Of a stretch of 50,221 nucleotides of DNA, positions 14,556 to 44,035 are shown piece after piece (within the stretch, counting starts at the first letter, position 1; each line of letters begins with the position of its first letter). The stretch is from NCBI GenBank assembly GCA_910573755.1, contig CAJTBO010000034.1, positions 1 through 50,221 of the forward strand, in the 5' to 3' direction. Source of the stretch: Lachnospiraceae bacterium (lineage in GTDB: Bacteria; Bacillota; Clostridia; Lachnospirales; Lachnospiraceae). The notes under the pieces are model-generated. The model was given only the letters and a program-made list of their open reading frames with translations. It was not told where the DNA came from and did no database searches. The position numbers and the translations under genes were made by a program.

Positions 14556-14664
14556 ACGAGCCATCCTCCCGTCCCAGACTGCCTCTCCCGGCAGCCAGCT
14601 TTTTCCGTAACACCCTAATAATAAGCCATTTCCCTCTATTTTTCAAGTGGTAACAAAAGATAAG

Positions 14665-15042: not shown

Positions 15043-15336
15043 TCATATCTCTATCTTATGCTGCAACAAAGCTTTTGCAAACTCATACAGCTCGTCACTG
15101 ACTTCCTCTATCAGCCTCACATCTTCCACCGCATCCGTATGCTTCAGGACTTCCTCCTTTACAATCGTTTCCATCGTATACTTTGCAGAAGGACAGCCAC
15201 TGCAATGGCCGGTAAATTTTACATACGCAATATTGTTCCTGATCTCTGCCAGATAAAGGCTCCCGCCGTGCTTTGCCAGTTCAGGCTCCACATATTCCGC
15301 CAGAACCGCTTCTATGATCTGTTTTTTCTCTTCCAT
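15043..15336 (-). CDS. NifU C-terminal-domain protein (Fe-S scaffold type)
   Basis: This 97-residue protein is a stand-alone NifU-like domain with the conserved CSGCPSAKYTMETIV motif (two Cys spaced C-x2-C) and the preceding GGSLYLAEIRNNIAYVKFTG. Such proteins assemble or carry Fe-S clusters for transfer to target enzymes. The neighbouring 4-hydroxybutyryl-CoA dehydratase needs a [4Fe-4S] cluster, so a supporting role is plausible but inferred. It is separated from the CoA transferase gene by an intrinsic terminator at 15351-15413. Confidence 0.88.
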   Translation of the reverse strand: MEEKKQIIEAVLAEYVEPELAKHGGSLYLAEIRNNIAYVKFTGHCSGCPSAKYTMETIVKEEVLKHTDAVEDVRLIEEVSDELYEFAKALLQHKIEI

Positions 15337-15350: not shown

Positions 15351-15413
15351 TTTTTAAAAATCCGGACGGTACATGAAATTAAAAAAGCAATAAAGAAAAG
15401 GGTACCGCCCGGA
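15351..15413 (-). terminator. Intrinsic terminator after the CoA transferase gene
   Basis: On the minus strand TCCGGGCGGTAC and GTACCGTCCGGA form a 12-bp stem (one G-U pair) around a long loop of 29 nt, followed by five U. It marks the main 3' end of the liv/4-hydroxybutyrate gene run. Confidence 0.75.
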
Positions 15414-15470: not shown

Positions 15471-16775
15471 TCAATCTTCATATTTACAATGAAATCTTCT
15501 TTCATATTCCTCTGCCAGCCCCGCTCGGAAATCAGGATGTGCAACCTTGATCAGCGCAGATGCACGCTGTCTTAAGGATTTCCCCCGCAGTGCCGCGATC
15601 CCATACTCTGTCACGATATAGTCAACATCCGTCCTGGATGTCGTCACCGCCGCGCCCTCGTCGAGAAAAGGAACGATCTTGGAAACGGTTCCCCTCTTCG
15701 CCGTAGAGCCGATAGCCATAATGGATTTTCCGCCTTTGCTCCGCCTTGCCCCCCGGACAAAATCGGTCTGTCCGCCGATACCGGAAATCTGGGATAAGCC
15801 TGCGCTCTCCGCCGCAACCTGCCCCTGCAGATCCACCTGAATACAGGAATTGATGGAAATCAGGTTATCATTTCGAGCAATAATGAACGGATCATTCACA
15901 TAGTCAACAGGACACATATATATGGACGGATTATCATCCGCATAGTCATACAACCTCTTTGTACCCATCAGGAACGTAACAACCGTCTTGCCCGGATGCA
16001 GAGTCTTCCTTTTGTTTGTAATAACGCCCGCCGCGATCAATTCGACAACTCCGTCCGAAATCATCTCCGAATGGATGCCAAGATCCTTTTTCTCTTTCAG
16101 AAAAAGAAGCACCGCGTCAGGAATAGCACCGATACCAAGCTGAAGCGTATCACCGTCATGGATCAGCTTCGCACAATTTTCGCCGATCGCTTTTTCCACT
16201 TCACCGATCTTTGGAAGCCCAAGCTCTAAAACAGGTTCATCGATCTCCACAAACGCATCGATCTCAGAAACATGAAGAAAAGTATCGCCGTGGGTTCTCG
16301 GCATCTGCGGATTTACCTGTGCAATCACTCTCTTCGCACACCTCGCCGCCGGCAATGTATAGTCTACGGAAATACCGCAGCTGCAATATCCGTCCTTATC
16401 AGGCGGTGTCACGATAATGATCGCGACATCCACCGGAAGATAGTTCCGGAACAGTCCCGGGATCTCGGAAAAGCAGCAGGGTGTAAAATCACCCCGCCCC
16501 TCCTTTACTACCGGCCGCGACTGCACGCCCAGAAACATGGAATTTAAATGAAAATGCCCTTCTGTTCCCGGCTCCGCAAATCTGGCATTGCCCATGGAAA
16601 CCATCTGCATGATCTCAACATCCCTGTAATTCTCTTTGTGATCCACCATCACATCCGTGATCGCGATCGGAACACCGACCGCATGTCCGATGACAACTCT
16701 GTCTCCGTCATGGACCAGCTTAACCGCCTCTTCCGCACTCATTCTTCGTTCGTCATAAATTTTCTTCCATTCCAT
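15471..16775 (-). CDS. abfT: 4-hydroxybutyrate CoA-transferase (acetyl-CoA hydrolase/transferase family)
   Basis: The enzyme moves CoA from acetyl-CoA or butyryl-CoA to 4-hydroxybutyrate. Both halves of the acetyl-CoA hydrolase/transferase fold are present. The catalytic glutamate is in HSEMISDGV (Glu 237, where the Clostridium aminobutyricum enzyme has Glu 238). The CoA-contact loops GIGAIPDAVL and SGIGGQTDFVRGA are intact. Its 434 residues match AbfT rather than longer acetate:succinate transferases. It is 29 nt downstream of the dehydratase gene and last in the run. Butyryl-CoA:acetate transferases are the nearest alternative, but the neighbours favour 4-hydroxybutyrate. ATG at 16775 follows TGGAGG. 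Confidence 0.88.
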   Translation of the reverse strand: MEWKKIYDERRMSAEEAVKLVHDGDRVVIGHAVGVPIAITDVMVDHKENYRDVEIMQMVSMGNARFAEPGTEGHFHLNSMFLGVQSRPVVKEGRGDFTPCCFSEIPGLFRNYLPVDVAIIIVTPPDKDGYCSCGISVDYTLPAARCAKRVIAQVNPQMPRTHGDTFLHVSEIDAFVEIDEPVLELGLPKIGEVEKAIGENCAKLIHDGDTLQLGIGAIPDAVLLFLKEKKDLGIHSEMISDGVVELIAAGVITNKRKTLHPGKTVVTFLMGTKRLYDYADDNPSIYMCPVDYVNDPFIIARNDNLISINSCIQVDLQGQVAAESAGLSQISGIGGQTDFVRGARRSKGGKSIMAIGSTAKRGTVSKIVPFLDEGAAVTTSRTDVDYIVTEYGIAALRGKSLRQRASALIKVAHPDFRAGLAEEYERRFHCKYED

Positions 16776-16803
16776 ATTTCATGACCTCCAAATCAATCCA
16801 CTG

Positions 16804-18255
16804 TCATTCTTTTATCTTGGCAATCTTCTTCGCCAGTTCCTTTTTCATCGGCAGATTGCCCTGGCGGGAAATCATGATCCTCTGCGCCTGAGGGCTTCCC
16901 GCACCGTGCATAGATTCCGTACGATAACCCACGGCTGCTGTTCCAAGACACAGATTTTCGATCAAACGAAGAATACGGATCCTGTTCTCTACAGGAACAT
17001 CTGCGGCACCGACAAGGTATTTCTGTACCCACTTACCGGTCTCTTCTCCTCTCAGATCTGCTTCGGAAGGAGCTGTTACCATAATGCCGCCTGCGATATC
17101 CTCCGCGAGCCGTGCGATTTCATAGGGAAATCTTGTAACATTCTGCTTACATACATTCGCAAGAAGCAGATCTATAATATAATTGCCGGACTGTGTCTTG
17201 CTGCCTTCTGCAGAGCAGGCGATACCGCAACAATATAAGGTCTCGTTTAAGTGCATCATCTCGATCAGCTTATCTTTAATATGGGAAGCTTTTGCCGCAC
17301 CATTATACTCTGCCGCCAATGCAGAAGCCCCGATCAGGACATCGCCCACGCCTACTTTACAGCCGCCATAGCTCTGCCTGTGATAACCTGCAAACCGCTC
17401 AACCAGCATTCCCGCAAATTCATTTTCTCCGTTCAAGAAGATCCTGTCATTTGGAACAAATACATCATCAAAGATCACAAGTGCTTCTACACCGCCGAAT
17501 TCGCTGTTGCCGACATCAAGTTCAGACCCCTCCAGTTTCCTTGTATCACAGGACTGTCTGCCGATGATCATGGAAATACCTTCCGCATCGGTCGGAACGG
17601 CAAATGCAACCGCATAGTCTTTATCGTCAGGTCCCATGGAAATGGTCGGCATAACAAGAACTTCCTGTGAATTGATAATACCTGTCTGATGCGCCTTTGC
17701 CCCTCTGACAACGATACCATCCTCTCTTCTCTCCACCACATGAAGGTACATATCGGGGTCTGCCTGCGCATGAGGCGCAAGACCTCTGTCACCCTTTGGA
17801 TCTGTCATTGCGCCGTCAACAGTGAAGTCCTTTTCCTGACAATACATTGCAAACTTTTTAAAATTCTCAAAATAAGATGTACCGTATTTTTGATCGATCT
17901 CATAAGTTGTGCTGTAGACAGCATTAAACGCGTCCATACCGACACATCTCTGGAAACATGCCGCTGTCTGCTGGCCGCATAAACGCTGCATTTTCACCTT
18001 GTTCATCAGATCTTCCGTGCTCTGATGAATATGTAAGAAACGGTTGATCTTCTCTCCTGTAAAGATAGATGTTGCCGTCATCAGATCTTCATATTCAGGA
18101 TTCTGCGCCAGATCATAGGTAGCCTTTACGGAATTCAGGGAAGGACGAAGAATGGGATCATCCACAGGATTCTGTATTTTTTTGCCAAACATATATACCT
18201 TCAAATTCATAGCGCGCATGCTTTCAACATACTGCTCACCGGTCATCATTGCCAT
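16804..18255 (-). CDS. abfD: 4-hydroxybutyryl-CoA dehydratase / vinylacetyl-CoA isomerase
   Basis: AbfD dehydrates 4-hydroxybutyryl-CoA to crotonyl-CoA by a radical mechanism with FAD and a [4Fe-4S] cluster. The four cluster ligands of the family are all visible: Cys 100 and Cys 104 in AACFQRCVGMDAFNA, and His 292 and Cys 299 in YHRQSYGGCKVG. They match C99, C103, H292 and C299 of the clostridial enzyme. The acyl-CoA-dehydrogenase-like fold and the 483-residue length agree. It lies 50 nt after 4-hydroxybutyrate dehydrogenase and 29 nt before the CoA transferase. 4-Hydroxyphenylacetate 3-monooxygenase oxygenase components are distant relatives, but the Cys/His ligands exclude them. Confidence 0.95.
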   Translation of the reverse strand: MAMMTGEQYVESMRAMNLKVYMFGKKIQNPVDDPILRPSLNSVKATYDLAQNPEYEDLMTATSIFTGEKINRFLHIHQSTEDLMNKVKMQRLCGQQTAACFQRCVGMDAFNAVYSTTYEIDQKYGTSYFENFKKFAMYCQEKDFTVDGAMTDPKGDRGLAPHAQADPDMYLHVVERREDGIVVRGAKAHQTGIINSQEVLVMPTISMGPDDKDYAVAFAVPTDAEGISMIIGRQSCDTRKLEGSELDVGNSEFGGVEALVIFDDVFVPNDRIFLNGENEFAGMLVERFAGYHRQSYGGCKVGVGDVLIGASALAAEYNGAAKASHIKDKLIEMMHLNETLYCCGIACSAEGSKTQSGNYIIDLLLANVCKQNVTRFPYEIARLAEDIAGGIMVTAPSEADLRGEETGKWVQKYLVGAADVPVENRIRILRLIENLCLGTAAVGYRTESMHGAGSPQAQRIMISRQGNLPMKKELAKKIAKIKE

Positions 18256-18305
18256 AATTTTAATCTCCTTCTGTTTTTTAGTCTCTTTTATATTTATTGC
18301 CTCTT

Positions 18306-19442
18306 TTACAGGCAGCTCTGGTAAATAGCCTTTATCTCCTCCTGGCTCAGAGGAACATAGCTGTTCTTCAAAAGTCTCTGCTGATTGTCAACCGTGCTCT
18401 GTGCAAAAGGTTCGATATCCTCCTGCACTACGCCGTATTCGCGCATCTTCTTCGCGGGAAGCACCTTGTCAAGCAGTTCTCCCAGCAATACAATGGCACT
18501 CTTATCATCCTCCGCACCGCAAAAGCCTCCGGATGCCATACATTTTTTCAAAATGTCCTTCAGCTCTTCCAGCCTGCCGCCGGACTCTTTTTCTTCATAT
18601 ACTTTCAGAACCGGCACAAAATACTGATAATTGCTCTCACCGTGAGGAACATGGTACTTTCCGCCGATGGCATAAGCCATTGCATGAACGGCACCGCAGC
18701 CGTTATTGGAAAATGCGATACCTGCCATACAGCTTGCGATCAGATAATCCTTCGCATCCTCTTTCCATACCTCTGGGCTGTCAGCAGCGATTCTGCAGTA
18801 ACCTTTCAGGATCATTTCGATCGCCTTTACCGAATACATCCCGGAAAAAACTGTCGCGTCAGGATTCAGATAGGATTCAACTGCATGAACCAGCGCATCA
18901 ATGGAACTTGTTGCAAATACTTTATAGGGGAGGCTGCCGAGAAACTCGGAAATCAGCACAGCCTTATCCGCAAACATCGCTGTCGAAACCATCCCCTGTT
19001 TTGTTCCAAGCTTTGTCCTGTTTAAAACCGCAATATTTGTCACTTCGCTGCCGGTACCGCAGGTAGTCGGTATGATGATAAGCTCTTTCCCCTTTTTCAG
19101 GGAGGCCATCTTATCGTACATGTCATCGATACCGTCTCCGCCTTCCAGAACGAGAACCTTGGCAATATCAATAATCGTACCTCCGCCTACTGCGATGATT
19201 CTTTTTGCATTATATTTTTTCATTTCTTCCAGAATTGCCTCGGTCATAACATCCGTGGGTTCTCCCATTCCATATTTTTCCTGATAAATCACGCCGCATT
19301 TTAAATTTTCGGCTGCCATAATGGGACTGTAGATATACTCATTTGTCAGGATCACATCTCCCTCACCCAGCTCATATTCCGCTGCAAATGCTTTAAACGT
19401 ATCATAGGACTGTATCTCAGGTTTGATCAAAATCTGCTTCAT
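18306..19442 (-). CDS. abfH: 4-hydroxybutyrate dehydrogenase (iron-containing alcohol dehydrogenase)
   Basis: The enzyme interconverts succinate semialdehyde and 4-hydroxybutyrate with NAD(H). It has the group III alcohol dehydrogenase layout: the nucleotide motif GGGTIID (86-92), the PTTCGTGSEVT loop, and metal ligands Asp 182, His 186, His 253 and His 267 (SSIDALVHAVESY, GAVHAMAYAIG, VPHGES). At 378 residues it fits the clostridial 4-hydroxybutyrate dehydrogenases. Its start overlaps the stop of the cupin gene (TAATG), so the two are translationally coupled. The substrate is assigned from sequence type plus the flanking dehydratase and transferase. No succinate semialdehyde dehydrogenase (SucD) is present. 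Confidence 0.88.
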   Translation of the reverse strand: MKQILIKPEIQSYDTFKAFAAEYELGEGDVILTNEYIYSPIMAAENLKCGVIYQEKYGMGEPTDVMTEAILEEMKKYNAKRIIAVGGGTIIDIAKVLVLEGGDGIDDMYDKMASLKKGKELIIIPTTCGTGSEVTNIAVLNRTKLGTKQGMVSTAMFADKAVLISEFLGSLPYKVFATSSIDALVHAVESYLNPDATVFSGMYSVKAIEMILKGYCRIAADSPEVWKEDAKDYLIASCMAGIAFSNNGCGAVHAMAYAIGGKYHVPHGESNYQYFVPVLKVYEEKESGGRLEELKDILKKCMASGGFCGAEDDKSAIVLLGELLDKVLPAKKMREYGVVQEDIEPFAQSTVDNQQRLLKNSYVPLSQEEIKAIYQSCL

Positions 19443-19849
19443 TACTGCTCTTCCTCCTGCTTTTTAAATTCGTCAAAATCAAAATTTTCATAGAATGTAT
19501 ATTCGATAGCAGATAACTGCGGTGCATAGAAACATGCCAGTTTCAGCGGTTCGCTCCCCGTATTCCAGACCATATGCGGAACACCCTGTGGAAACAGCAG
19601 CACGGCCCCCGGCTTCAGATTAAAGATCTTCTCTCCAACTTTTGCCCTTCCTGAGCCTGAAACCACATAAATCGTCTCCTCACCGTTATCATGGGCATGG
19701 GCCGGTTTCGCCCTTGCACCCGGCTCGTATACTGTGATACAGATAGAACTGTACTGCCCGCCTGTTGTTTCCGGAGTCTGCACCCAGGTCACCGTTCTGC
19801 CGGGCATCTGCTTTTTAAACATACTGTCCTCATGTGCCAATAAATTCAT
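19442..19849 (-). CDS. Single-domain cupin protein
   Basis: This 135-residue beta-barrel cupin has the metal-binding motif 1 AKPAHAHDNGEETIYVVSGSGRAKVG (two His and a Glu) and motif 2 LFPQGVPHMVWN with a further His. It therefore likely binds a divalent metal. Small cupins act as sugar isomerases, dioxygenases or ligand sensors, and sequence alone does not decide. It is coupled by a TAATG overlap to 4-hydroxybutyrate dehydrogenase and follows a zinc dehydrogenase by 27 nt. A second cupin stands on the other side of the transketolase genes. RBS GGAGGG precedes ATG at 19849. Confidence 0.88.
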   Translation of the reverse strand: MNLLAHEDSMFKKQMPGRTVTWVQTPETTGGQYSSICITVYEPGARAKPAHAHDNGEETIYVVSGSGRAKVGEKIFNLKPGAVLLFPQGVPHMVWNTGSEPLKLACFYAPQLSAIEYTFYENFDFDEFKKQEEEQ

Positions 19850-19876
19850 CTTTCCCTCCGTTCCGAGGCAAACGCA

Positions 19877-20905
19877 TCATTGCCCGACTTTTACAAGTAC
19901 TTTAAATGCCTCTTTACATTTTTCAGCATACTCAAATGCTTCTGTAACTTTATTAAATTCAAACACCTTGCTGATCAGCTTATCCAGCTTTTCATCCAAC
20001 GCGCCATCCACTACCATATTGACCGCGCCGCCGAAGTTATACTGGTTATGTATACGTACCCCCTGGATCCGCAGTTCTTTGGCGAATACTTTTCCGGTAT
20101 CTACAGGATAAGGCCCCTTTGTCATCGCGATCTGAACGATCGTTCCCGTATTTTTCACATGATCTACAAGTGTTGTGATCGCACTGGGCACGCCTGCCGC
20201 CTCAAATCCGACATCATAGCCTTTTCCTTCGTTTACGGCAAGAAGTTTCTTTTCAAAATCCTCTTCCAGCGGATTCAGGGCGATAAACCCGAAACCCTCC
20301 GCCAGCTTTCTGCGGCTCTCCACCACTTCGGAAATAACTACTTTACCGGCTCCGCCTCTCTGTGCCACAAGACCGATCAAAAGCCCGATAGGACCGCCGC
20401 CTATAACAAGCACATTCTCACCGACCTGCATGCCGCTCATGCGTACATCATGCACCGCTACCGCAAGTGGCTCGATCAGCGCCGCGCGTTTTATATCGAT
20501 ATGTTTCGGTATCTTAAACAGTTTTTTTGTCTTAACCTTCACATACTCCGCAAATCCCCCGTCTGCGTGAACACCGATGATCTGCAGATGGATACATGCA
20601 TTATCTTCACCCTTAGCGCAGGAATCACAGACGCCGCAGGTCAAAAGTTCCTGCGCGGTTACAATGTCTCCGATCTGAAACAACTCACTGCCTTCTCCTT
20701 TTATCTCCACCAGTTCACCGACAAATTCATGTCCGGGAATCCTCGGAAAAGTTGCCGTAGGATGATGTCCGTGCAGAACATGTACATCTGTTCCGCATAT
20801 ACCGATATACTGTACCCTGATCAGCGCCTCGCCTTCTTTGATCTCCGGCCTGATCCTCTCAACAATATGCATCTCTTCAGGACGCTCAATCACCAATGCT
20901 TTCAT
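19877..20905 (-). CDS. Zinc-dependent polyol/alcohol dehydrogenase (MDR family)
   Basis: This 342-residue medium-chain dehydrogenase has the catalytic zinc site (Cys 37 in GICGTDVH, and GHE at 58-60) and the four-Cys structural zinc lobe (Cys 90, 93, 96, 104). The Rossmann motif is VIGGGPIGLLIGL, with Glu at the end of beta-2 (SEVVE) favouring NAD. The family includes sorbitol, threonine, butanediol and galactitol dehydrogenases. It lies 11 nt after the transketolase genes, so it may turn a polyol or hydroxy-acid into the ketone used by transketolase. That substrate link is inference. ATG at 20905 has AAAGGAG upstream. Confidence 0.88.
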   Translation of the reverse strand: MKALVIERPEEMHIVERIRPEIKEGEALIRVQYIGICGTDVHVLHGHHPTATFPRIPGHEFVGELVEIKGEGSELFQIGDIVTAQELLTCGVCDSCAKGEDNACIHLQIIGVHADGGFAEYVKVKTKKLFKIPKHIDIKRAALIEPLAVAVHDVRMSGMQVGENVLVIGGGPIGLLIGLVAQRGGAGKVVISEVVESRRKLAEGFGFIALNPLEEDFEKKLLAVNEGKGYDVGFEAAGVPSAITTLVDHVKNTGTIVQIAMTKGPYPVDTGKVFAKELRIQGVRIHNQYNFGGAVNMVVDGALDEKLDKLISKVFEFNKVTEAFEYAEKCKEAFKVLVKVGQ

Positions 20906-20916
20906 TTTTTTCTCCT

Positions 20917-21879
20917 TTATTTGCGAACAAGTACTTTTTCTACAGTGGCAGCGATATTTTCCGCTTTCAGTTCAAACCGCTCTGCAAGATAATCGACCGG
21001 CCCCACTTCACCGAACTGATCCTGTACACCGATCATCTCCACAGGTACCGGGCTGTTCTTCACAAGAACTTCCGCAACGGCAGAACCGAGTCCGTTTATC
21101 ACATTATGGTTTTCCGCAGTCACAACAGCGCCGGTCTCTTTTGCCGCTTTTACGATCGCTTCCGCGTCAACAGGCTTCCAGGTGAATATATTCAGTACTC
21201 TTGCGCTGATGCCCTTTACACTCAGTTCTTTTGCTGCTTTCAGCGCCTCTGCCACACAGTATCCGGAAGCAATGATCGTGACATCCCTGCCTTCCCGGAG
21301 ATTTACCGCTTTACCTATTTCAAACCTGGAACCTTCTTCATAAATTCTTACAGACTGTTTACGCACCAGACGCATATAATGCATGCCGTAAACGCCGGAA
21401 ATCTGACGGATAATATCTGCCAGCATTACCGTATCCACCGGTTCGAGGACAGTCATCTCAGGAATCCCCCTCATAATGCCCATGTCTTCAAAAGGCATAT
21501 GTGTACCGCCGTTTAAGGAAGCTGTAATACCGGGATCAGAACCGACAAGCTTTACATTTAATTTTGCATATGCGCCGGACACAAAAACCTGATCACAGGC
21601 ACGGCGAGTGATAAAAGGAGCAAACGTATGCACAAACGGAATCTTTCCGACTGCGGAAAGGCCTGCGGCAACACCTACCATGTTAGCTTCCTGGATGCCG
21701 CAGTCAACAGTCTGCTCCGGAAATTTTTTGCCAAAAGGTTTTGTCCCCATAGCTCCCATTAAATCTGCATCCAGAACAATGATATCCTTATTATCTTCCG
21801 CCACTTCCATCAAGGTATCGCAGAATACCTTACGCATCTCTATGGGGTCATCATAGGGCTTTTCTACTAATCTATACAT
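20917..21879 (-). CDS. Transketolase, C-terminal subunit
   Basis: This 320-residue subunit carries the pyrimidine-binding domain (VVLDADLMGAMGTKPFGKKFP, then DCGIQEANMVGVAAGLSAVG with the Glu that activates thiamine diphosphate). The transketolase C domain follows (about 200-315: VTIIASGYCVAEALKAAKEL). It needs the N-terminal subunit encoded 19 nt upstream. GGGAGG stands 8 nt before the ATG at 21879. A GTG at 21897 would add six residues but destroys this spacing. Split transketolases are common in Firmicutes. Some serve pentose metabolism and others cleave unusual ketoses, as in the two-subunit sulfofructose transketolase. Which applies here is unknown. Confidence 0.92.
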   Translation of the reverse strand: MYRLVEKPYDDPIEMRKVFCDTLMEVAEDNKDIIVLDADLMGAMGTKPFGKKFPEQTVDCGIQEANMVGVAAGLSAVGKIPFVHTFAPFITRRACDQVFVSGAYAKLNVKLVGSDPGITASLNGGTHMPFEDMGIMRGIPEMTVLEPVDTVMLADIIRQISGVYGMHYMRLVRKQSVRIYEEGSRFEIGKAVNLREGRDVTIIASGYCVAEALKAAKELSVKGISARVLNIFTWKPVDAEAIVKAAKETGAVVTAENHNVINGLGSAVAEVLVKNSPVPVEMIGVQDQFGEVGPVDYLAERFELKAENIAATVEKVLVRK

Positions 21880-21898
21880 TTCAAATTCCTCCCGCACT

Positions 21899-22738
21899 TT
21901 AATATGAATCTATTGCTGCCTGCATCTCCGCAAGGGCTTCTGCCAGTTCCTCATCATTCAGCCCTCTGCTGTGGCTGCCTACCTGATTCGCCGATTTACT
22001 CCAACCGTTGCCCTTCACCGTATTCAATACGATCATCGACGGCTTTTCACTCTGTGCTTTGGCACGATTGATCGCTTCATCGATGGCTGCCACATCATGT
22101 CCGTCGATATCCTGGGCATACCAGCCAAACTCTTCAAATTTCTTTGCCACATTCCCCAGCTTACAGATTTCATCCGTCGGGCCGTCCAGCTGCAGCTTAT
22201 TATAATCCACGAAACCGATCAGATTGGAAAGTTTTCTGTGTCCCGCAAAAAGAGCCATCTCCCATACCTGGCCTTCATTGATCTCCCCGTCTCCGAAAGC
22301 CACATATACATAATTATCCTTGCCTTTCATCTTCATTCCCAGTGCAATACCGGCTGCGGCAGATGCTCCCTGTCCGAGAGAACCGCATGTCATATCCACT
22401 CCGGGTGTTTTTGTCCTGTCCACATGGCTGGGCAGTTTTGTATGCGGTCTGTTCAAAGTTGCCAGTTCTTCCACCGGCATAAAGCCTTTCAGGGCAAGCG
22501 TTGAATATAACGCCGGACCCGCATGCCCTTTCGAAAGGATAAACCAGTCCCTGCCTTCCCACTGAGGATTTTTCGGATCATATTTCATCTGATCACAGTA
22601 AAGCACCGCCAGAAGGTCCGTAATAGATAACGAGCCCCCCAGATGCCCGATTCCCAGACCGGCAATCATTTTCACTACTTCCATCTGTACCTGCTTGGAA
22701 AAGATCTTCATCTCCTTAATCTTTTCAACATTTAGCAT
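21899..22738 (-). CDS. Transketolase, N-terminal subunit
   Basis: This 279-residue subunit holds the diphosphate-binding half of transketolase. It has GHLGGSLSITDLLAVLY with the substrate-side His, LSKGHAGPALYSTLALKG, and the thiamine diphosphate/Mg motif GDGEINEGQVWEMALFAG continuing to NLIGFVDYNKLQLDG. With the C-terminal subunit it transfers a two-carbon ketol unit from a ketose to an aldose. The gene follows a cupin gene by 42 nt and precedes the partner subunit. The donor ketose cannot be read from the sequence. ATG at 22738 follows GGAGGAATGGGAA. Confidence 0.93.
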   Translation of the reverse strand: MLNVEKIKEMKIFSKQVQMEVVKMIAGLGIGHLGGSLSITDLLAVLYCDQMKYDPKNPQWEGRDWFILSKGHAGPALYSTLALKGFMPVEELATLNRPHTKLPSHVDRTKTPGVDMTCGSLGQGASAAAGIALGMKMKGKDNYVYVAFGDGEINEGQVWEMALFAGHRKLSNLIGFVDYNKLQLDGPTDEICKLGNVAKKFEEFGWYAQDIDGHDVAAIDEAINRAKAQSEKPSMIVLNTVKGNGWSKSANQVGSHSRGLNDEELAEALAEMQAAIDSY

Positions 22739-22780
22739 TTCCCATTCCTCCTGCTCTGCTGCTATATTTAATAAAAATTA

Positions 22781-23164
22781 TTACTGCTCTTCTTCATCCA
22801 AAAATTTTTTCTCCGGTCCCGGTGGTGAATATACCCAATACAGCCTGAGCTGTTCCGTCCCGTTATTGGTAAAGGTGTGAGGTTCCCCTTTCTCTATCGC
22901 GATCAGATCCCCCGGCTTAATGGTCAGTTCCGCACCGCCCACTTTTCCAAAACCGGTACCCTGTACCACAAAGATCAGTTCCTCACTGTCCGGATGTACA
23001 TGCTCTTCATGTATCTGTCCCGGATCGATCAACGCCATACCACAGCCATAGGCATCCCTTTTAGCCTTAGAATTCGGAGAGGCAAAAAGTTTGATACGGC
23101 GTTCATTGACAGTCCCCTCATTGATCACTTTTCCCTTTACGCTGTCAACTGAAAATTTATACAT
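22781..23164 (-). CDS. Second single-domain cupin
   Basis: This 127-residue cupin has motif 1 IHEEHVHPDSEELIFVVQGT (His, His, Glu) and motif 2 AIEKGEPHTFTN (His). It resembles the cupin at 19442-19849 in size and motif layout but is clearly diverged. The two bracket the transketolase-dehydrogenase genes. It lies between livF and the transketolase N subunit, so it is encoded in the same run. Isomerase and ligand-sensor roles are both possible. RBS GGAAGGGGG stands before ATG at 23164. Confidence 0.88.
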   Translation of the reverse strand: MYKFSVDSVKGKVINEGTVNERRIKLFASPNSKAKRDAYGCGMALIDPGQIHEEHVHPDSEELIFVVQGTGFGKVGGAELTIKPGDLIAIEKGEPHTFTNNGTEQLRLYWVYSPPGPEKKFLDEEEQ

Positions 23165-23218
23165 GACAACCCCCTTCCTTCCGCATATGTTTTCAGCCCA
23201 AAATCTTTCATGCCCTTT

Positions 23219-23923
23219 TTATATACCCAGATATGCCTTCTTCAGTCCCTCGTCCTGCAAAAGCCTGTTTCCATCATCCTGCATAACGACAACGCCGTTT
23301 TCTATAACATATCCCCAGTCAGACATGGCGAGCGTATGCCCTACGTTCTGTTCTACAATCAGTACCGCCGTTCCCCGATCCCGCACCATCTTAATGGTCT
23401 GGAACATCTCGTTGACCAGAATAGGCGCAAGCCCCCAGGAAGGCTCGTCCATGATAAGCAGTTTCGGCCTGCCCATCAGCGCTCTGGCTGTCGCCACCAT
23501 CTGCTGTTCCCCTCCGGAAAGCGTACCGGTGAGCTGCTTTCTTCTCTCAAGAAGGCGGGGGAATATCTCAAACATCTCCTCCAGATTTTCCTTCCTGTGT
23601 TTCTTTGCCTCTTTTGTGCAGGAACCGATATCCAGATTTTCCTCCACCGTCATATTCGGAAACAGCTGTCGTCCTTCCGGTACCAGACAGACACCCTTCT
23701 GCATAATCTTATCCGGCGCAAGGCCTGTCAGTTTCTCGCCGTCAAATTCAACCGTACCGCTCGTTGTCGGAATCAATCCGGTAATTGCTTTGATCAGGGT
23801 ACTTTTTCCGGCACCGTTTCCTCCCACGATCGCTACGATCTTTTCATCCGGTACTTCCAGTGAAATCCCGTGGACAATCTCTCCGCCGTTATATCCGGTT
23901 CGTAATTCATTAATTTTCAGCAT
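23219..23923 (-). CDS. livF: ABC importer ATP-binding protein, LivF type
   Basis: This is the second nucleotide-binding subunit of a HAAT (branched-chain amino acid type) importer. Walker A is GGNGAGKS (34-41), the signature LSGGEQQM, Walker B LLIMDEPSWGLAP, and the switch His lies in the C-terminal half. The 234-residue form starts at the ATG at 23923. It overlaps the end of livG by 14 nt and has GGGGAGG 9 nt upstream. A longer frame to 23968 is not supported. It acts on the inner face of the membrane with LivG, LivH and LivM. Confidence 0.93.
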   Translation of the reverse strand: MLKINELRTGYNGGEIVHGISLEVPDEKIVAIVGGNGAGKSTLIKAITGLIPTTSGTVEFDGEKLTGLAPDKIMQKGVCLVPEGRQLFPNMTVEENLDIGSCTKEAKKHRKENLEEMFEIFPRLLERRKQLTGTLSGGEQQMVATARALMGRPKLLIMDEPSWGLAPILVNEMFQTIKMVRDRGTAVLIVEQNVGHTLAMSDWGYVIENGVVVMQDDGNRLLQDEGLKKAYLGI

Positions 23924-24644
23924 TATCAAAATCCTCCCCAAGATATGCGCTGATTGCGCGTTTGTCATTAGCTACCTCTTCCGGTGACCCCTCTACCAGC
24001 TTTTCCCCACGGTGAAGAATATATATCTTGTTGCACAGCGACATGATCGTCTTGATATCATGCTCAATGATAATGATCGTCACGCCAGAATCACGGACCT
24101 TGCGGCAGGTATCCACCAATTCCAGTTTCTCCTGTGGGTTGCAGCCCGCCATCACCTCATCCAATAAGATCAGTTCCGGTTCCACCGCGAGCGCACGGGC
24201 AATCTCCAGTTTCTTTTTATCAACCGTTGTCGTGCTTGCCGCCTTCATGTCCAGATCACAGGTCATTCCGACAAGTTCCGCCGTCTGCCTCGCTTTTTCC
24301 TCAACGGATTTTGTTTTATTATTATGAAGAAACCCACCAACCATGATATTTTGCAGAACAGACATATCACCAAAGGGTTTAGTCACCTGAAATGTTCTTG
24401 CCAGACCCATTTTTGCCATATCTTCCGTTTTTGCAGCACTGATATCCTTATCTTTAAAATAAATCCTGCCGTTTGTCGGATGATAATAATTTGCTATCAT
24501 ATTAAACAGTGTCGTCTTACCTGCCCCGTTTGGGCCGATCAGGCCGACGATAGACCCTTCTTCGATCTCACCGCAAAAATCATTTACCGCCGTCAGACCG
24601 CCAAACTGTTTTGTAACATGCTCGATTTTTACAATAGCTGCCAC
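23910..24644 (-). CDS. livG: ABC importer ATP-binding protein, LivG type
   Basis: This 244-residue ATPase has Walker [10 protein letters not shown], the LivG-specific Q-loop region [20 protein letters not shown], a degenerate signature region ([10 protein letters not shown]), Walker [14 protein letters not shown] and the switch IIEHD. The expected LSGGQ is replaced by [12 protein letters not shown]. Start is GTG at 24644 with GGAG 9 nt upstream. The gene overlaps livF by 14 nt and follows livM by 21 nt. Confidence 0.92.
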
Positions 24645-24665
24645 TCCCTGTATCTCCTTTCTCTG

Positions 24666-25682
24666 TTATTCTTTCACCTTCTTTTTTCCAAATATCTTCT
24701 CTTCCACTTTCTGCAGTATAGATACAACATGCTCACAGAAACCATGGGGCATGAAATATACCACCAGCATCATGACTACACCGTAAAGGAACAAATTCAG
24801 ACCGGACATCTGTCCTGCAAACTTGGAAGAAAGTATCTCCGACAAGGGTATCAGTACGATGGCTCCGATAATAGGTCCCATAACGGTTCCCTGTCCTCCG
24901 ATCAGCGCGATCAGTGCCACCTGAACAGAAAGGTCATAACTGAAAATACGATCCGGTCCGATATAGCGGAAATACTGCGCATAAAAAGTACCTGCGATGG
25001 AGATCATAAAGCAGCTGATCGCCATAGCGATCAGTTTATACTTTGTCACATTGATCCCGAGGCTTCTCGCCGCGTCATCATCACTTCTGATCGCTACCAG
25101 ATAATATCCAAGTTTGCTTTCGGACATCTTATAGGTTACAAAAAGCCCGATCAGCATCAGTGCAAAAGCGATATAAAAGTATGACAGCTTACTGGAAAAC
25201 TCAAACATAGATGCCTGATTGCCCGTCTGGGTCAAAGACCAGCCGGAACCGCCCTTGATGGGAATGGGGCCGAGGCTTTCCGTATTGGAAATAAAAGTTC
25301 CCAGAAGTTCAACGATGGCAATCGAAGAAAGGGTAAAATAAGGCCCCTTCAGCCTGAAAGTAGGATAACTGATGATCACTCCCAAAAGCATCGCAACGGC
25401 TGCGCCTATGAACATGCCGATCCAGGGAGAGATACCTTTCGTCTCCAGTATGATCGTAGAAATATATCCCCCAATGCCCATATATACCGAATGGCCAAGG
25501 GACATGGTTCCCGCGTAACCGCATATAAAATTCCACGCAGTAGCTGCATACGCATAGTAGCATACCAGTACCAGAATGCCCTGCCAGTAGAGTCCTGAAA
25601 AAAGTGGTATGACCGCAAGTATGACCAATGTAAGCCACACGAAAAATTTTCCTTTAAAAATTGAATTTCCTTTATAAGTCAT
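24666..25682 (-). CDS. livM: ABC importer permease, LivM type
   Basis: This 338-residue integral membrane protein has about eight to ten hydrophobic segments. The family hallmark [23 protein letters not shown] is near residue 54, and the EAA-like loop [20 protein letters not shown] lies before the last segments. It forms the translocation path with LivH. The C-terminus is basic (KKKVKE), as expected for the cytoplasmic side. It is 12 nt downstream of livH. Confidence 0.93.
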
Positions 25683-25694
25683 TCTTTATAACCC

Positions 25695-26594
25695 TCACTT
25701 TCTTTTCCTGCTGCCCAGCAAACCATCCGGCATTAATACCAGAACTATTAAAAATACCGCAAATGACAGCATAGACGCCATTGTTGAAGGAATAAACTGT
25801 GCAATTACCTGTTCGATCAAACCGAAGATCATGCCTCCGACAATAGCGCCTGGTATGCTTCCCAGTCCCCCCAGTACAACGATCATAAAGGATTTTGTAC
25901 CGAAAACATTTCCCACGGAAGGCGACACCAGATAAAAAGAGGACATTGCCGCACCTGCGATTGCCAGAGCCGCTGTTCCAAGTCCGAAAGCAATGCCGTA
26001 GGTTGTATGTACATCCACACCGCAGAGTGCTGCCGCATCACGATTCTGGGAAACCGCACGTATCCTCTTTCCCAGTTCGGTTTTATTGATGATAAACCAG
26101 AGCCCGAAAGCCACGACAAAACACAAAATAAATGCAATGATCCTTGAATATTGTGTTACGAAACTGTTATCAAAAGCCCTGAAATAATTTTTATAGGACC
26201 ATGTATTCAAAGTTTTATATCTTGATGTGTAGATCATCAGGTAAAGGTTGCAGATCGCATAGTCCAGTCCTATTGTAAAAAGCATTACACTGGTAGGCTC
26301 TAATACGCTGGCGCTCTCACGGATCAGCAGCGGCCGGATGATCACCTTCTGCAGTAAAAATCCAATTATAAAAAATGCCGGTGCAATAAAAAACATCGCA
26401 AAGAACGGATCTACGTTAAAACGCGTAAACAATTCATAGTACGCAAAAGCGGAAGCCATCAGCATGGCGCCATGAGAAAAATTGATAATACGCACAACGC
26501 CGAATATAACACTCAGACCGACAGCGATCAGACTGTATGCTCCGCCGAGGATCAATCCATGTAAAATCGCTATAAATATATTATTCATGCTCAT
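25695..26594 (-). CDS. livH: ABC importer permease, LivH type
   Basis: This 299-residue permease has LivH signatures: LILGGAYSLIAVGLSVIFGVVRIINFSHG at the N-terminus, AVSQNRDAAALCGVDV as the coupling loop, and VLGGLGSIPGAIVGG near the C-terminus. About eight membrane segments are visible. The ATG at 26588 (third residue) has the better ribosome-site spacing, so the first two residues may not be made. It is the first gene after the binding protein, with an 80-nt gap that contains a hairpin. Confidence 0.93.
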   Translation of the reverse strand: MSMNNIFIAILHGLILGGAYSLIAVGLSVIFGVVRIINFSHGAMLMASAFAYYELFTRFNVDPFFAMFFIAPAFFIIGFLLQKVIIRPLLIRESASVLEPTSVMLFTIGLDYAICNLYLMIYTSRYKTLNTWSYKNYFRAFDNSFVTQYSRIIAFILCFVVAFGLWFIINKTELGKRIRAVSQNRDAAALCGVDVHTTYGIAFGLGTAALAIAGAAMSSFYLVSPSVGNVFGTKSFMIVVLGGLGSIPGAIVGGMIFGLIEQVIAQFIPSTMASMLSFAVFLIVLVLMPDGLLGSRKRK

Positions 26595-26619
26595 TTCCTT
26601 TCACAGCAGCCCAGATAGA

Positions 26620-26643
26620 AGGGAGAAAGGAGTACTTTCCCCC
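26620..26643 (-). other. Hairpin between livK and livH
   Basis: GGGAGAAAG (26621-26629) can pair with CTTTCCCCC (26635-26643) with one bulge, in the 80-nt gap after livK. There is no U-run after it. Hairpins here often protect the binding-protein message or reduce read-through, giving more LivK than permease. Confidence 0.4.
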
Positions 26644-26674
26644 TTATCTACTGCTTTTTATTACACTCTACTTG

Positions 26675-28036
26675 TTATCTCTCGCTGAAAGAAGGGATTG
26701 GCAGAATAGGAACATTCCCTTCCACACTGTGCTCTGCCGGATACAGTGGAACTGCAACGCCATCCTGATACTGTACGATCGTACCGCCGGTAGCGCCGCC
26801 ATCAAATGTATTCTGATTCTTTTCATCAAATGCGATTGCAGAATATCCACTTAACAGCGCACGGTCTGTACCATCATTATGTAACTCGATACCTTTGATG
26901 GCATCACGAAGCGTTTCCGCATCTGTAGTACCTGCCGCTTCTAAGGCATAGTATGCTATATAGGCAACGGTCCAACCCTGAGCGAAGAAAGATGTCATTT
27001 CATAACCATAAGTTTCTTTGCATTGTGTTGCTACTTCCTGAATCCATTCATGATTCTGCACACCGCACATGTCCCAGTCTTCCTGTACAAAATGATAGTT
27101 GTAAACCTCCTGGTCAAGTGCTTCGAAGAATGCCGCATCCTGCCAGCCGCCGCCTACAGACCACACACCCCAGGGAAGGTCTACCTGGTTCGCATACAGA
27201 GCATTTGAAAATACGATAGAGTCATCTGTATAGAATGAAACGTTCAGAACATCCGCGCCGGAGTCTTTTACCTTCAGCACCTGGGATGTCATATCCGCCT
27301 GACCATTTGTAACAGGCTCATCAAGTACACAGGTCCAGCCTCTTTCATCTGCTGCTTCCTTCCAGATACGAGCATTGTCTGCGCCCCAGTCTGAATTTTC
27401 ATATACAAGAGCATAGGTCAGTGTATCCAGATTATTTTCTTCGCAGATCGTATCAAGGGCAGTGATCATCTCAAGAACGTCATATGTTGCGGTATTATTG
27501 ATGCGGTACACATAATCATATCCGCGATCCGTCACTGCCGTCGCAACGCCGCCTTGAGAGATATAGGGAATAGAGTATTTCTGTGCAACCTCAGAGGAAG
27601 AAATACAACAGGTACTGTTATAGGCGCCGATGATCATGCTCACTCCGTCATCTGTGATCAGACGTTCACAAGCTACTGATGCTTTGTCAGCCGCTGTCTC
27701 TGTATCTGCCACGACAAGCTGTATCTGGGCGCCGCCCATGGACTTGATACCGCCGTTTGCATTGATCTCCTTAATCGCTGCCTCCGCACCATCTGCATGC
27801 TGCTGTCCGATCGTTGCCGACCCGCCGGTAAGCGGCCATAGACTGCCGATCTTTACTACATCGCCCGATGCGGCGGCGGGTGCCTCTGTCCCTGCCTCTG
27901 TCTCTACTTCCGTTCCCTCCGCGCTGGATGCCGGTGCTTCCGCAGTCCCGCTGTTCCCGCAGCCCGCTATCATACTTGCCGTCATAATCACAGCAAGACC
28001 GAGACTTAACAAGCGTTTAACTTTTCCCTTACTCAT
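26675..28036 (-). CDS. livK: ABC importer substrate-binding lipoprotein, LivK type
   Basis: This 453-residue lipoprotein has a lipoprotein signal (KRLLSLGLAVIMTASMIAGC, lipid-anchored Cys 26), a low-complexity linker rich in Ala/Glu/Thr, and a type I periplasmic-binding fold (VVKIGSLWPLTGGSATIGQQ, then VVADTETAADKASVACERLI and MIIGAYNSTCCISSSEVAQ). These domains bind branched-chain amino acids, but also amides, urea and aromatic or short-chain acids. The ligand is therefore not fixed. The start is ATG at 28036 with AAGGAGG upstream. The open frame beyond is not coding. First gene of the long run to 15471. Confidence 0.92.
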   Translation of the reverse strand: MSKGKVKRLLSLGLAVIMTASMIAGCGNSGTAEAPASSAEGTEVETEAGTEAPAAASGDVVKIGSLWPLTGGSATIGQQHADGAEAAIKEINANGGIKSMGGAQIQLVVADTETAADKASVACERLITDDGVSMIIGAYNSTCCISSSEVAQKYSIPYISQGGVATAVTDRGYDYVYRINNTATYDVLEMITALDTICEENNLDTLTYALVYENSDWGADNARIWKEAADERGWTCVLDEPVTNGQADMTSQVLKVKDSGADVLNVSFYTDDSIVFSNALYANQVDLPWGVWSVGGGWQDAAFFEALDQEVYNYHFVQEDWDMCGVQNHEWIQEVATQCKETYGYEMTSFFAQGWTVAYIAYYALEAAGTTDAETLRDAIKGIELHNDGTDRALLSGYSAIAFDEKNQNTFDGGATGGTIVQYQDGVAVPLYPAEHSVEGNVPILPIPSFSER

Positions 28037-28543: not shown

Positions 28544-29590
28544 TTACTTATTTTCTCCGGCGGCCTCCAGCAAATATTTAAAACCGATTTTCCGCTGATA
28601 TCCGTCAAATGCCTTTTCCCAGTCTTCCAGCAGGCAGACATTGCTGATCAACGGCTCCAGCTTCACTTCTCCTCTCCGCACAAGATCCAGTGCCTTTACC
28701 CACCACTGCGGTTTCTGCGCATAGGTTCCTCTGACAGAAAGTTCCTTTAACGTAATCAAATTCATATCCAGCTCTACAGACCTGCCGGTCAGTCCCACCT
28801 GTACATAACGCCCGCCTTTCCGAACCGCCCGCAGCCCCATACGGATTGCCGCCCCTGCTCCGGAACAGTCGAACACCACATCCGGTCCAAAGGGAGCACA
28901 GAGTGCCGCGATTTTTTCTTCCCCATCCGGTTTATCAGAATAGATCACTTCCGAGGCCCCCAACGTCTTTGCCAGTTCCAACCGCTCCTGATCCACCGCT
29001 GTCCCCGCCATGACCACCACTGCTCCTGCACTCACCGCAACCTGCAGGCACATCAGCCCGATAGCTCCCGGACCGGTGATCAGCACCCTGTCGCCGGGTA
29101 CGATATCCCCGAATTCCAGAACACCCTGCACACAACACGCCAGAGGTTCCGTCATGGCAGCTTCCCTCAGGCTTATGCCCTCCGGGATCAAATGCAGATT
29201 CTTTTCCGGCACTACAACATATTCCGCCATGGCACCATTCACCGCGCTGCCGATGGATCTTTTCTCAGGACACAGGTTTCCTTTTCCCGTCTTGCAGTAC
29301 ATACAATGTCCGCAGGTATGATAATATGTTTCGCTGACAACCCTTTTGCCGATCCAGAACGGGTCTGTTCCCTCTCCTGCCGATTCCACGACTCCCGACA
29401 GTTCATGCCCCAATATAACAGGCGGATTGGTCGGATAGCCTCCGTCTCCCTCAAAAATATGAAGGTCTGTTCCGCAGATGCCGCAGTATGACACCTTTAT
29501 CCTCACCTGTCCCGCAGATGGTACGGGCATCTCAACATCCATACACTTTACTTTTTCAGGCCCGTTTTCATAATTTACTATCGCCTTCAA
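28544..29590 (-). CDS. Zinc-dependent alcohol dehydrogenase (MDR family)
   Basis: This 348-residue dehydrogenase has catalytic zinc ligands in YCGICGTD (Cys 39) and GHE (61-63), structural zinc Cys 93, 96, 99 and 107, and the nucleotide motif ITGPGAIGLMCLQ. The start is TTG at 29590 with GGAGG 9 nt upstream. It overlaps the end of the upstream paralogue by 23 nt. It shares zinc-ligand spacing and the SxGxGAMAEY-type segment (GSAVNGAMAEYVVV) with that gene, so the pair arose by duplication. The substrate is unknown. Relatives act on sorbitol, threonine or sugar-derived ketones. Confidence 0.88.
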   Translation of the reverse strand: MKAIVNYENGPEKVKCMDVEMPVPSAGQVRIKVSYCGICGTDLHIFEGDGGYPTNPPVILGHELSGVVESAGEGTDPFWIGKRVVSETYYHTCGHCMYCKTGKGNLCPEKRSIGSAVNGAMAEYVVVPEKNLHLIPEGISLREAAMTEPLACCVQGVLEFGDIVPGDRVLITGPGAIGLMCLQVAVSAGAVVVMAGTAVDQERLELAKTLGASEVIYSDKPDGEEKIAALCAPFGPDVVFDCSGAGAAIRMGLRAVRKGGRYVQVGLTGRSVELDMNLITLKELSVRGTYAQKPQWWVKALDLVRRGEVKLEPLISNVCLLEDWEKAFDGYQRKIGFKYLLEAAGENK

Positions 29591-30635: not shown

Positions 30636-30710
30636 CTTCACTCTACCTCTCAGAACCTTATCTTCATGTCGAATTTTAGTGTATTCTATCTCAACAGCCC
30701 TCAAAAATCA

Positions 30711-32444: not shown

Positions 32445-32478
32445 CCGGATCACATCCAAAGATTCCGGTATATTTTTT
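32445..32478 (+). terminator. Weak terminator of the PucR-type gene
   Basis: CCGGA (32445-32449) and TCCGG (32464-32468) form a short stem followed by TATATTTTTT on the plus strand. It lies within the end of the convergent dehydrogenase gene. Confidence 0.4.
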
Positions 32479-38284: not shown

Positions 38285-38296
38285 ATTGCAGCCCTA

Positions 38297-38998: not shown

Positions 38999-39023
38999 TT
39001 ATTTTCACCTCAATCTGCATTAC

Positions 39024-39875: not shown

Positions 39876-39902
39876 ACTACCATAAACCTCCTGATTTTAC
39901 AA

Positions 39903-39933
39903 GCCGGGAGCCAGCGCATTTCTGATTCCCGGC
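39903..39933 (-). terminator. Hairpin after tnpW
   Basis: GCCGGGA (39903-39909) pairs with TCCCGGC (39927-39933). It lies 19 nt after the tnpW stop. The element shares GATTCCCGGC with the terminator at 37043-37072. The U-run is poor (TTGTAAAAT), so termination is likely but not certain. Confidence 0.55.
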
Positions 39934-39951
39934 CTGTTTCTATTATCGTTT

Positions 39952-40134: not shown

Positions 40135-40164
40135 AAATGCTCCTTTTCATGCAATCAGGTTTTG

Positions 40165-41771: not shown

Positions 41772-41893
41772 TTAGTTGCTCCTTTGGTTCAGAATGGGTT
41801 ATTTCGGCGCCTGTACGCATTTTAAGGCGGCTTTTGGGGTGTCAGTGATAAAAAGTATTGCCTCCCCTCCGACACGCTCCGAAAGTGCTTGAT

Positions 41894-43867: not shown

Positions 43868-44035
43868 ATGGAATATGGCTATGGCGGTTCGCCTCCTTTC
43901 GGGTGGGGATAGATTGGCTTCGCTGGAAAGGGCAGACGCAGGGCGGGTGTCCTTTCCGGCGGTGCGCACAAGGGGTTTGGGGAGTGTAGCTCTCCATTGC
44001 GTCCAGAGGACGCCATGCCCCCGGCAGGGCGCACG

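Follow-up and report, generated by a model that had tools for sequence, protein, structure and literature searches.

The 4-hydroxybutyrate branch of Clostridium aminobutyricum and C. kluyveri is built from abfD, abfT, and abfH, and the inositol route of Thermotoga uses IolM and IolN. In the classical iol pathway (IolG-E-D-B-C-J), kinase and aldolase lead to malonate semialdehyde, and Anaerostipes rhamnosivorans converts inositol to propionate by IolC/IolJ, butyrate not being the product (both from the available part of PMC8355322). Some gut bacteria, with Dysosmobacter welbionis and Intestinibacillus named, turn myo-inositol into butyrate by a pathway that a 2025 review describes as not yet fully characterised (PMC12482443); the available portion of its text does not mention transketolase. 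In the faecal culture of one donor, 13C6-phytate gave 13C4-butyrate and 13C2-acetate (PMC7618129, excerpt), which fits an intact C4 unit and is not proof of one. Ordinary transketolases, Carboxydothermus included, carry the residues RSFHR, whereas RAFDR is found in the sulfofructose transketolase subunits of the sulfo-transketolase (sulfo-TK) pathway (SqwGH; available part of PMC11659671). Herein, we analyze the window, a stretch of 50,221 nucleotides that is contig C34 of a 4.88 Mb Lachnospiraceae genome (assembly GCA_910573755.1). Its minus-strand gene run (15471-28036) encodes an importer (LivKHMGF), a split transketolase (TK; TktN and TktC), two cupins, a Zn-dehydrogenase, an Fe-alcohol dehydrogenase (Fe-ADH), AbfD, and AbfT. 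With roughly even confidence, we propose that this operon cuts a ketose acid, probably 2-deoxy-5-keto-D-gluconate (DKG), by transketolase and carries the remainder to butyrate via 4-hydroxybutyryl-CoA. The sequence gives gene content, conservation, motifs, and linkage, from which we infer every reaction and substrate.

The locus resembles the sulfo-TK pathway, as described in the excerpt of PMC11659671, in its two-subunit RAFDR transketolase, a reductase suited to disposing of an aldehyde, and ABC import. It would also share the transfer of C2 from an anionic, non-phosphorylated ketose to glyceraldehyde-3-phosphate. It would differ in acting on a carboxylate rather than a sulfonate, in a single TK round, and in the fate of the aldehyde, which would pass through a CoA ester and AbfD to butyrate instead of ending as isethionate; the window also has no RpiB-type SqwI isomerase beside its TK. 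The proposed route would be to carboxylates what the sulfo-TK pathway is to sulfonates, coupled with the fermentation of 4-hydroxybutyrate. With the classical iol pathway (PMC8355322), the window shares an iolC over its cut-off and an iol-type Fe-ADH nearby, and elsewhere TK genes lie inside iol clusters. In contrast to that pathway, TK would replace kinase and aldolase, the aldehyde would have four carbons rather than being malonate semialdehyde, and the window genome has no IolD over the cut-off. The Clostridium branch is matched by abfD, abfT, and the abfH-like Fe-ADH, but the window operon lacks a succinate-semialdehyde source and is coupled to transketolase. As for the Thermotoga route, the window dehydrogenases of the MDR family are related to IolM, and an IolN-like hydrolase occurs in the TK neighbors L033/L068, L066, and L067; the window differs in having no IolN and a transketolase in place of the epimerase step.

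AbfD matched the gamma-aminobutyrate metabolism dehydratase/isomerase of Clostridium (1u8v) at 787 bits over nearly its whole length. It keeps the Cys, Cys, His, and Cys of the motifs CFQRC and YHRQSYGGC, which we take to be ligand residues. By this close match and the ligand motifs, the window AbfD is predicted to be a 4-hydroxybutyryl-CoA dehydratase. The best solved-structure matches of AbfT are 4-hydroxybutyrate CoA-transferases (3eh7, 1.8e-160; 3gk7, 1.7e-151). The Fe-ADH of the run has Cvir-Hbd2 as its best PDB match (30sm, 1.4e-99), and the sulfoacetaldehyde reductase model scores best on it at 158.6 against a cut-off of 700. The transketolase consists of two open reading frames matching the N- and C-terminal parts of the enzyme, like that of Carboxydothermus (6yak/6yaj). 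A sequence-only reading that preceded this work had remarked that no gene forming succinate semialdehyde is present; SucD, an aminotransferase, or another source was indeed not found in the operon, the genome not having been searched for them. LivK is no more than a distant match to amino-acid binding proteins, 8wch being the best at 100 bits, and naming the ligand of the importer from these matches was rejected as too distant. The AlphaFold model of cupin B has low confidence (mean pLDDT 65.5).

In the proposed route, LivKHMGF would import an acid or cyclitol, and three MDR dehydrogenases and two cupins would oxidise and isomerise it to a carboxylate-tailed ketose, for which DKG or an isomer close to it is the most likely candidate. 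DKG is HOCH2-CO-CHOH-CHOH-CH2-COO- and, by textbook rules, has the D-threo arrangement needed by transketolase (our own derivation, not computed). The split RAFDR-type TK would move C5-C6 of DKG onto triose phosphate, giving xylulose-5-phosphate and 3-hydroxy-4-oxobutanoate. Fe-ADH would reduce the latter to 3,4-dihydroxybutyrate, which AbfT would convert to the CoA ester. Crotonase would then yield 4-hydroxycrotonyl-CoA, Bcd/Etf would yield 4-hydroxybutyryl-CoA, AbfD would yield crotonyl-CoA, and Bcd/Etf would act again to form butyryl-CoA. In the window genome, crotonase and Bcd/Etf would be supplied by the butyrate cluster thl-crt-hbd-bcd-etfB-etfA found on contig C5. (R)-3,4-Dihydroxybutyryl-CoA is spatially equal to an (S)-3-hydroxyacyl-CoA, e.g., (S)-3-hydroxybutyryl-CoA, the usual crotonase substrate (again our derivation). 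The overall equation C6H12O6 -> butyrate + 0.5 acetate + CO2 + H2O balances on paper.

The sequence-only reading had suggested that the transketolase, by analogy with the sulfofructose enzyme, cuts a deoxy-ketose to an aldehyde that enters the 4-hydroxybutyrate branch. The analogy is supported, for the window TktC carries RAFDR, and so is the coupling, as the TK, Fe-ADH, abfD, and abfT core recurs in L067, L070, G084, G080 (there with a different CoA transferase), and G732. What changes is the entry point. The aldehyde is more likely 3-hydroxy-4-oxobutanoate from DKG; instead of entering directly as succinate semialdehyde, it would reach the branch once CoA activation, crotonase, and acyl-CoA dehydrogenase have acted.

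Inositol clusters of some other genomes carry the same enzymes. In G084, a single strand holds IolM (521.7 bits, cut-off 450), IolN (522.4, cut-off 245), IolG (432.3, cut-off 355), tktN, tktC, abfD, a CGGC protein, abfT, crotonase, acyl-CoA dehydrogenase (Bcd), EtfBA, and Fe-ADH, and continues with IolC, IolD (890.6, cut-off 715), IolB, thiolase, and Hbd; genes given here without a score were named by sequence or hidden Markov models (HMMs). G080 has, also on one strand, IolE-like, IolD (895.3), IolB-like, a CoA transferase of another type than abfT, Bcd, EtfBA, abfD, a second Fe-ADH, crotonase, tktN, tktC, and Fe-ADH. In G732, which belongs to another family, IolD (892.7, cut-off 715), IolE (375.5, cut-off 290), IolG-like, IolB-like, tktN, tktC, IolG (474, cut-off 355), Fe-ADH, pfkA, abfD, and abfT share a strand with other genes between them, and a separate iolC-type cluster (L175) is also present. 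The G080 cluster contains crotonase, and neither hbd nor thl was seen there. Crotonase without hbd or thl in the stretch was found in 7 of 33 abfD loci of the window's family, one of which, G084, has both further on (L052). The conversion of crotonyl-CoA to butyrate by itself would require no crotonase. Together, the G084, G080, and G732 clusters propose steps and testable genes for a myo-inositol-to-butyrate route.

Other iol loci show further arrangements. In L119 (G010:C141), which has IolE-like, IolD, and IolG, the genes abfD, Fe-ADH, and abfT directly follow iolD; no TK lies in the stretch, and an Asp-type TK is on another contig. Two iol loci without iolC (L071 3541-7142 and L219 3066-6781) hold a type II glyceraldehyde-3-phosphate dehydrogenase and phosphoglycerate kinase (tested in L071, by eye in L219). 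Both also contain a LarA-like gene, recognized by eye.

To place these clusters, 54 of 56 iolD rows were examined (27 family, 29 class; 200 family and 371 class genomes), two G199 rows being left out; L071, found by the TktN scan, is outside this tally. In the stretches seen, 26 loci had iolC only, 8 TK only, 1 both, 5 transaldolase only, and 14 none of the three. In total, 9 of the 54 loci had a TK no more than about 11 kb away from iolD; 8 of these lacked iolC in the stretch, and the nine carry seven family labels (f1, f7, f28, f33, f43, f44, and f84). With related loci treated as independent, which makes the Fisher values too optimistic, iolC and TK tend to avoid each other (one-sided Fisher p 0.012), TK or transaldolase set against iolC gives a Fisher p of 0.00017, and a rough Poisson estimate for chance TK-iolD proximity is about 6e-9 at an assumed expectation of 0.53. 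Among the 14 loci with none, L119 and L219 (G010), L165 (G058), and L160 (G165) come from genomes with an Asp-type TK elsewhere, and L150, L164, L193, L196, and L206 lie near contig ends. A transketolase-like match in L187 (34% identity) was taken as another protein type and not counted. A transaldolase-family gene occurs in iol loci L194, L197, L199, L200, and L201 (families f25 and f40), where neither iolC nor TK was found; it was called by HMM in all five and Pfam-tested in L197 and L200. In parallel to the sulfo-transaldolase (sulfo-TAL) pathway, this suggests a cut of 2-deoxy-5-ketogluconate to malonate semialdehyde.

The window TktC reads RAFDR at the alignment columns where the Carboxydothermus enzyme reads RSFHR. 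Against 4kxu, which we take to be human transketolase, both Arg are kept, with Ala at S345 and Asp at H416; the roles of the aligned residues, including the phosphate-binding His, are likewise our assumption. Asp stood at the His column in all 20 assessable transketolases near iol or abfD genes, 15 in the first alignment and 5 added with the later tree (L192 has only tktN within its stretch), and in these the first motif residue is R or K and the next is A, S, or C. His was found in 13 rows of the first alignment; the markers seen near these rows include neither abfD nor iol, though 11 of the 13 were seen only in 3-3.9 kb loci. The alignment comprised 75 pairs, reduced to 57 by merging near-identical rows; L013, L026, L031, L081, L082, L084, and L108 (fragments, misaligned, duplicate, or far outgroups) were left out before the first tree, and a later, midpoint-rooted tree also omitted L037. 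The window TK falls in a 9-row clade (100/99) with L067 and L070, and the iol-linked TKs are spread over several other branches. Within the 43-row Asp-type set (96/96), L007 (from L038), L008, L016, and L042 group together (100/100), next to the remaining 39 rows. The L038 locus contains Fe-ADH, TK, an RpiB-type isomerase, an FSA-like aldolase, and transaldolase, a layout resembling the published sulfo-TK/TAL clusters shown in the available part of PMC11659671.

Conservation of the block was assessed with a TktN scan of a genome collection (one genome per species, 84,980 species), which gave 23 loci, and with neighbor maps made by tblastn and HMMs. L062 (Bacterium 1XD8-76) and L064 (a Lachnospiraceae metagenome-assembled genome, MAG), the two relatives whose stretch spans the whole block, retain all 15 genes from mdr2 to abfT in order at 79-97% identity. 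L063 keeps 13 genes before its contig ends after Fe-ADH. L065, a MAG that is further removed and has a truncated contig, carries cupB, livKHMGF, tktN, and tktC at 50-73% identity; in front of them stand an MDR gene and a gene for a TIM barrel resembling xylose isomerase (IolI-like by eye). L067 (a Hespellia MAG) reads IolN-like hydrolase, tktN, tktC, Fe-ADH, abfD, abfT, and L070 (an Epulopiscium MAG) reads crt, hbd, bcd, etfB, etfA, tktN, tktC, Fe-ADH, abfD, abfT. The core of TK, Fe-ADH, abfD, and abfT is kept in these loci while import and preparation genes change; L067 and L070 hold the core without liv or cupins. The check that the sequence-only reading had named, conservation in other genomes, came out in favor of a single block from mdr2 to abfT in L062 and L064. 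Its expectation that one pathway would not have its halves separated held in part: the block is whole in those two loci, but in the stretches seen TK occurs without abfD in L066, L033/L068, and L069, and abf genes occur without liv in L067 and L070; the import half is therefore exchangeable. The block is rare, cupin B being matched in 2 of 397 family genomes, the window's own included, with the other match at 40%; cupin B was consequently dropped as a marker for further window-type operons. A creatininase-family, IolN-like protein stands directly before tktN in L033, L066, L067, and L068 (377 aa in L033, L067, and L068); that of L033 scored 264.7 bits against a cut-off of 245, and that of L067 is Creatininase in Pfam.

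The genes upstream of the run suggest a link of the window to inositol. iolC lies 5.6 kb before livK and shares 66-78% identity with iolC in 5 iol loci of the window's family. The L062 contig has iolC and Fe-ADH2 upstream in the same order, the L063 genome has iolC with Fe-ADH2 at the edge of its stretch, and in the L070 genome a more divergent iolC stands by itself on a short contig. With IolD missing, we interpret the window locus as offering two routes that consume DKG, or a compound accepted by the kinase, formed from some other source. Imported compounds that would fit are deoxyinositols, 2-deoxygluconate, or 5-deoxyglucuronate.

Several findings weigh against the proposed DKG-to-butyrate route. 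No IolD over the cut-off was found in the window genome (95.4% complete; best 235 bits against 715) or in the nine genomes behind L062-L070 (for which there is no completeness figure); DKG would therefore need another source in window-type genomes, and on this ground we rejected the idea that the window itself uses myo-inositol through the standard pathway. The L064 genome has no iolC over the cut-off, and the window operon itself holds neither crotonase nor acyl-CoA dehydrogenase. The TK of L033/L068, L066, and L069 has no abfD in its stretch, which speaks against an obligatory linkage. In an abfD survey of all 34 family rows (two being contig-end halves, G269) and 11 of 20 class rows (22 minus 2 repeats), TK was within 11 kb in only 6 of 45 loci, the window included; the majority of abfD genes sit in other contexts. 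Nor does the Asp mark the proposed pathway alone: in 22 further rows it occurs where the stretch seen shows neither abfD nor iol, and four of these 22 fall in the presumed sulfofructose clade. The Ala of RAFDR is not distinctive either, as ordinary TKs of the window's family read RAFHR, and the midpoint-rooted tree leaves the deep order within the Asp-type set unresolved. The IolB-like proteins of G080 and G732 score below the curated cut-off (91.5 and 93.7 against 205).

Some of these findings would suit two independent modules united by nothing but shared regulation, a sugar or cyclitol TK pathway and a 4-hydroxybutyrate fermentation fed by gamma-aminobutyrate or succinate semialdehyde formed elsewhere. 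In 39 of 45 abfD loci, no TK lies within 11 kb, and the TK-only stretches of L033/L068, L066, and L069 point the same way. Separate modules fit less well with TK-abfD linkage in several separate TK branches and three iol clusters, and with an Fe-ADH that, in the window type, L067, L070, G080, and G732, adjoins TK and abf genes or lies between them, though it sits at the far cluster end in G084 and is unseen in G058/G368. We place this explanation on the unlikely side. We also consider unlikely, slightly more so, the original succinate-semialdehyde version, in which TK would cut 2,3-dideoxy-5-ketohexonate to succinate semialdehyde, and Fe-ADH, AbfT, and AbfD would lead straight to crotonyl-CoA without further enzymes. 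It would account for the Fe-ADH-abfD-abfT runs of the window and L067, which contain no crotonase, for AbfT being nearest to 4-hydroxybutyrate CoA-transferases and Fe-ADH to Cvir-Hbd2, and for the window and L062-L070 genomes without IolD over the cut-off. However, iolC near the operon points to DKG, and the G080 crotonase, seen without hbd or thl, would be superfluous on such a route. We also know of no common natural source of 2,3-dideoxy-5-ketohexonate, which we count against this version.

Substrates other than DKG were weighed in the same way. Un-deoxygenated 5-ketogluconate, from IolM/IolN-type chemistry, would give a trihydroxybutyrate that AbfD-type radical chemistry would have to handle in a new way. 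IolN-like hydrolases precede tktN in L033/L068, L066, and L067, all in the TK clade of the window, but the window genes include no IolN, and an AbfD matching the classical enzyme this closely with its ligand motifs kept does not require a new substrate; we find this improbable. A sulfoquinovose sulfo-TK operon is hardly credible. Its split TK with RAFDR and the sulfoacetaldehyde reductase model as best scorer on the Fe-ADH, far below cut-off, are set against the missing RpiB-type isomerase after tktC, unlike L038, the lack of any role for abfD and abfT, and the grouping of the L038 enzyme (L007) with its kin L008, L016, and L042 apart from the window TK. Sulfoquinovose was rejected as the substrate on these three grounds.

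Returning to DKG cleavage by transketolase, the iol loci suggest a broader reading that we hold tentatively, with slightly less than even confidence. Three interchangeable cuts of DKG, by kinase and aldolase (iolC), transaldolase, or Asp-type TK, would mirror sulfoglycolysis. The TK branch with Fe-ADH, CoA transferase, crotonase, Bcd/Etf, and AbfD would be the missing myo-inositol-to-butyrate pathway of gut Clostridia, and the window would be a variant fed by another import. If true, inositol and phytate would be a source of butyrate without acetyl-CoA condensation, 4-hydroxybutyryl-CoA dehydratase would gain a role in sugar-derived metabolism, and the logic of sulfoglycolysis, cleavage of an anionic ketose by kinase, transaldolase, or transketolase, would reach carboxylate ketoses. 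Among the matches listed in the open-licence literature, with subscription papers and preprints outside the scope, no paper joins these steps.

The run comprises 13 genes transcribed from livK to abfT in the order livK, livH, livM, livG, livF, cupin A, tktN, tktC, Zn-dehydrogenase, cupin B, Fe-ADH, abfD, abfT. All genes named in the sequence-only reading are present on one strand, the minus strand; its count of twelve is corrected to 13, the number that it listed itself. The close spacing with overlaps that it described was confirmed, with gaps of -17 to +54 bases from livH to abfT, 80 bases between livK and livH, a TAATG overlap at the cupin B/Fe-ADH junction, and a livG/livF overlap of 14 with the livF start corrected to 23923. 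The intrinsic terminator that it placed at the end is plausible and not proven, a hairpin with a T run being found after abfT.

Table 1. Features of the gene run and its surroundings in the window
Feature	Position	Strand	Basis or remark
livK, substrate-binding lipoprotein, Peripla_BP_6	26675..28036	-	profile match
livH permease	25695..26594	-	named from sequence, no library scan; 95-97% identity in L062-L064
livM permease	24666..25682	-	named from sequence, no library scan
livG ATPase, GTG start	23910..24644	-	named from sequence, no library scan
livF ATPase	23219..23923	-	named from sequence, no library scan
cupin A, 127 aa, Cupin_2; proposed sugar-acid isomerase or ring hydrolase	22781..23164	-	function inferred
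tktN, split transketolase N-terminal subunit	21899..22738	-	6yak is the best PDB match; His retained in three active-site columns
tktC, split transketolase C-terminal subunit	20917..21897	-	RAFDR set, GSDPG motif
Zn-dependent MDR dehydrogenase, threonine-DH / scyllo-inosose 3-DH-like	19877..20905	-	below curated cut-offs
cupin B, 135 aa, Cupin_2	19442..19849	-	
Fe-alcohol dehydrogenase, abfH-like; proposed aldehyde reductase	18306..19442	-	best PDB match 30sm
abfD, 4-hydroxybutyryl-CoA dehydratase family	16804..18255	-	1u8v 787 bits; CFQRC and YHRQSYGGC motifs
abfT, 4-hydroxybutyrate CoA-transferase family	15471..16775	-	3eh7, 3gk7 matches
terminator-like hairpin: 12-bp stem, 29-nt loop, T run after	about 15362..15412	-	3' of abfT
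mdr1, Zn-dependent MDR dehydrogenase, threonine-DH/IolM-like	28544..29590	-	below curated cut-offs
mdr2, Zn-dependent MDR dehydrogenase, threonine-DH/IolM-like	29568..30704	-	below curated cut-offs
PucR-family regulator, divergent from mdr2	30801..32438	+	
Fe-ADH2	32450..33604	-	65-73% identity to Fe-ADH in 8 iol loci of the window's family
iolC, 5-dehydro-2-deoxygluconokinase	33623..34657	-	372 bits, cut-off 300
NifU-like protein	15043..15336	-	Pfam-tested
CGGC protein, 90 aa	14713..14985	-	no Pfam or NCBIfam family
pfkA phosphofructokinase	13587..14564	-	

Upstream of the run, mdr1 and mdr2 are kept before livK in L062-L064; the mdr1-livK gap is 507 bases in the window versus 72 and 73 in L062 and L064. 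Downstream, the NifU-like gene after abfT could possibly serve Fe-S supply for AbfD. NifU-like proteins also adjoin abfD/abfT in L064 (17408-17752, Pfam-tested) and L173 (8283-8576, by eye). A CGGCNP-type protein of about 90 aa, without a Pfam family, is near abfD in 22 of 44 abfD loci; in L115 and L173 it appears to be continuous with the beginning of the abfT reading frame. A phosphofructokinase gene lies beside transketolase or abfD in three arrangements, those of the window, L033 (12146-13120; L033/L068), and L173 (10359-11321; G732), and pfkA may handle the pentose or heptulose phosphates produced by transketolase. Elsewhere in the window, 37124-46828 was judged by eye to resemble a mobile element and includes a MobA/MobL relaxase (42440-44086), and an Rfam uup RNA match (62.7 bits) lies at 49141-49188.

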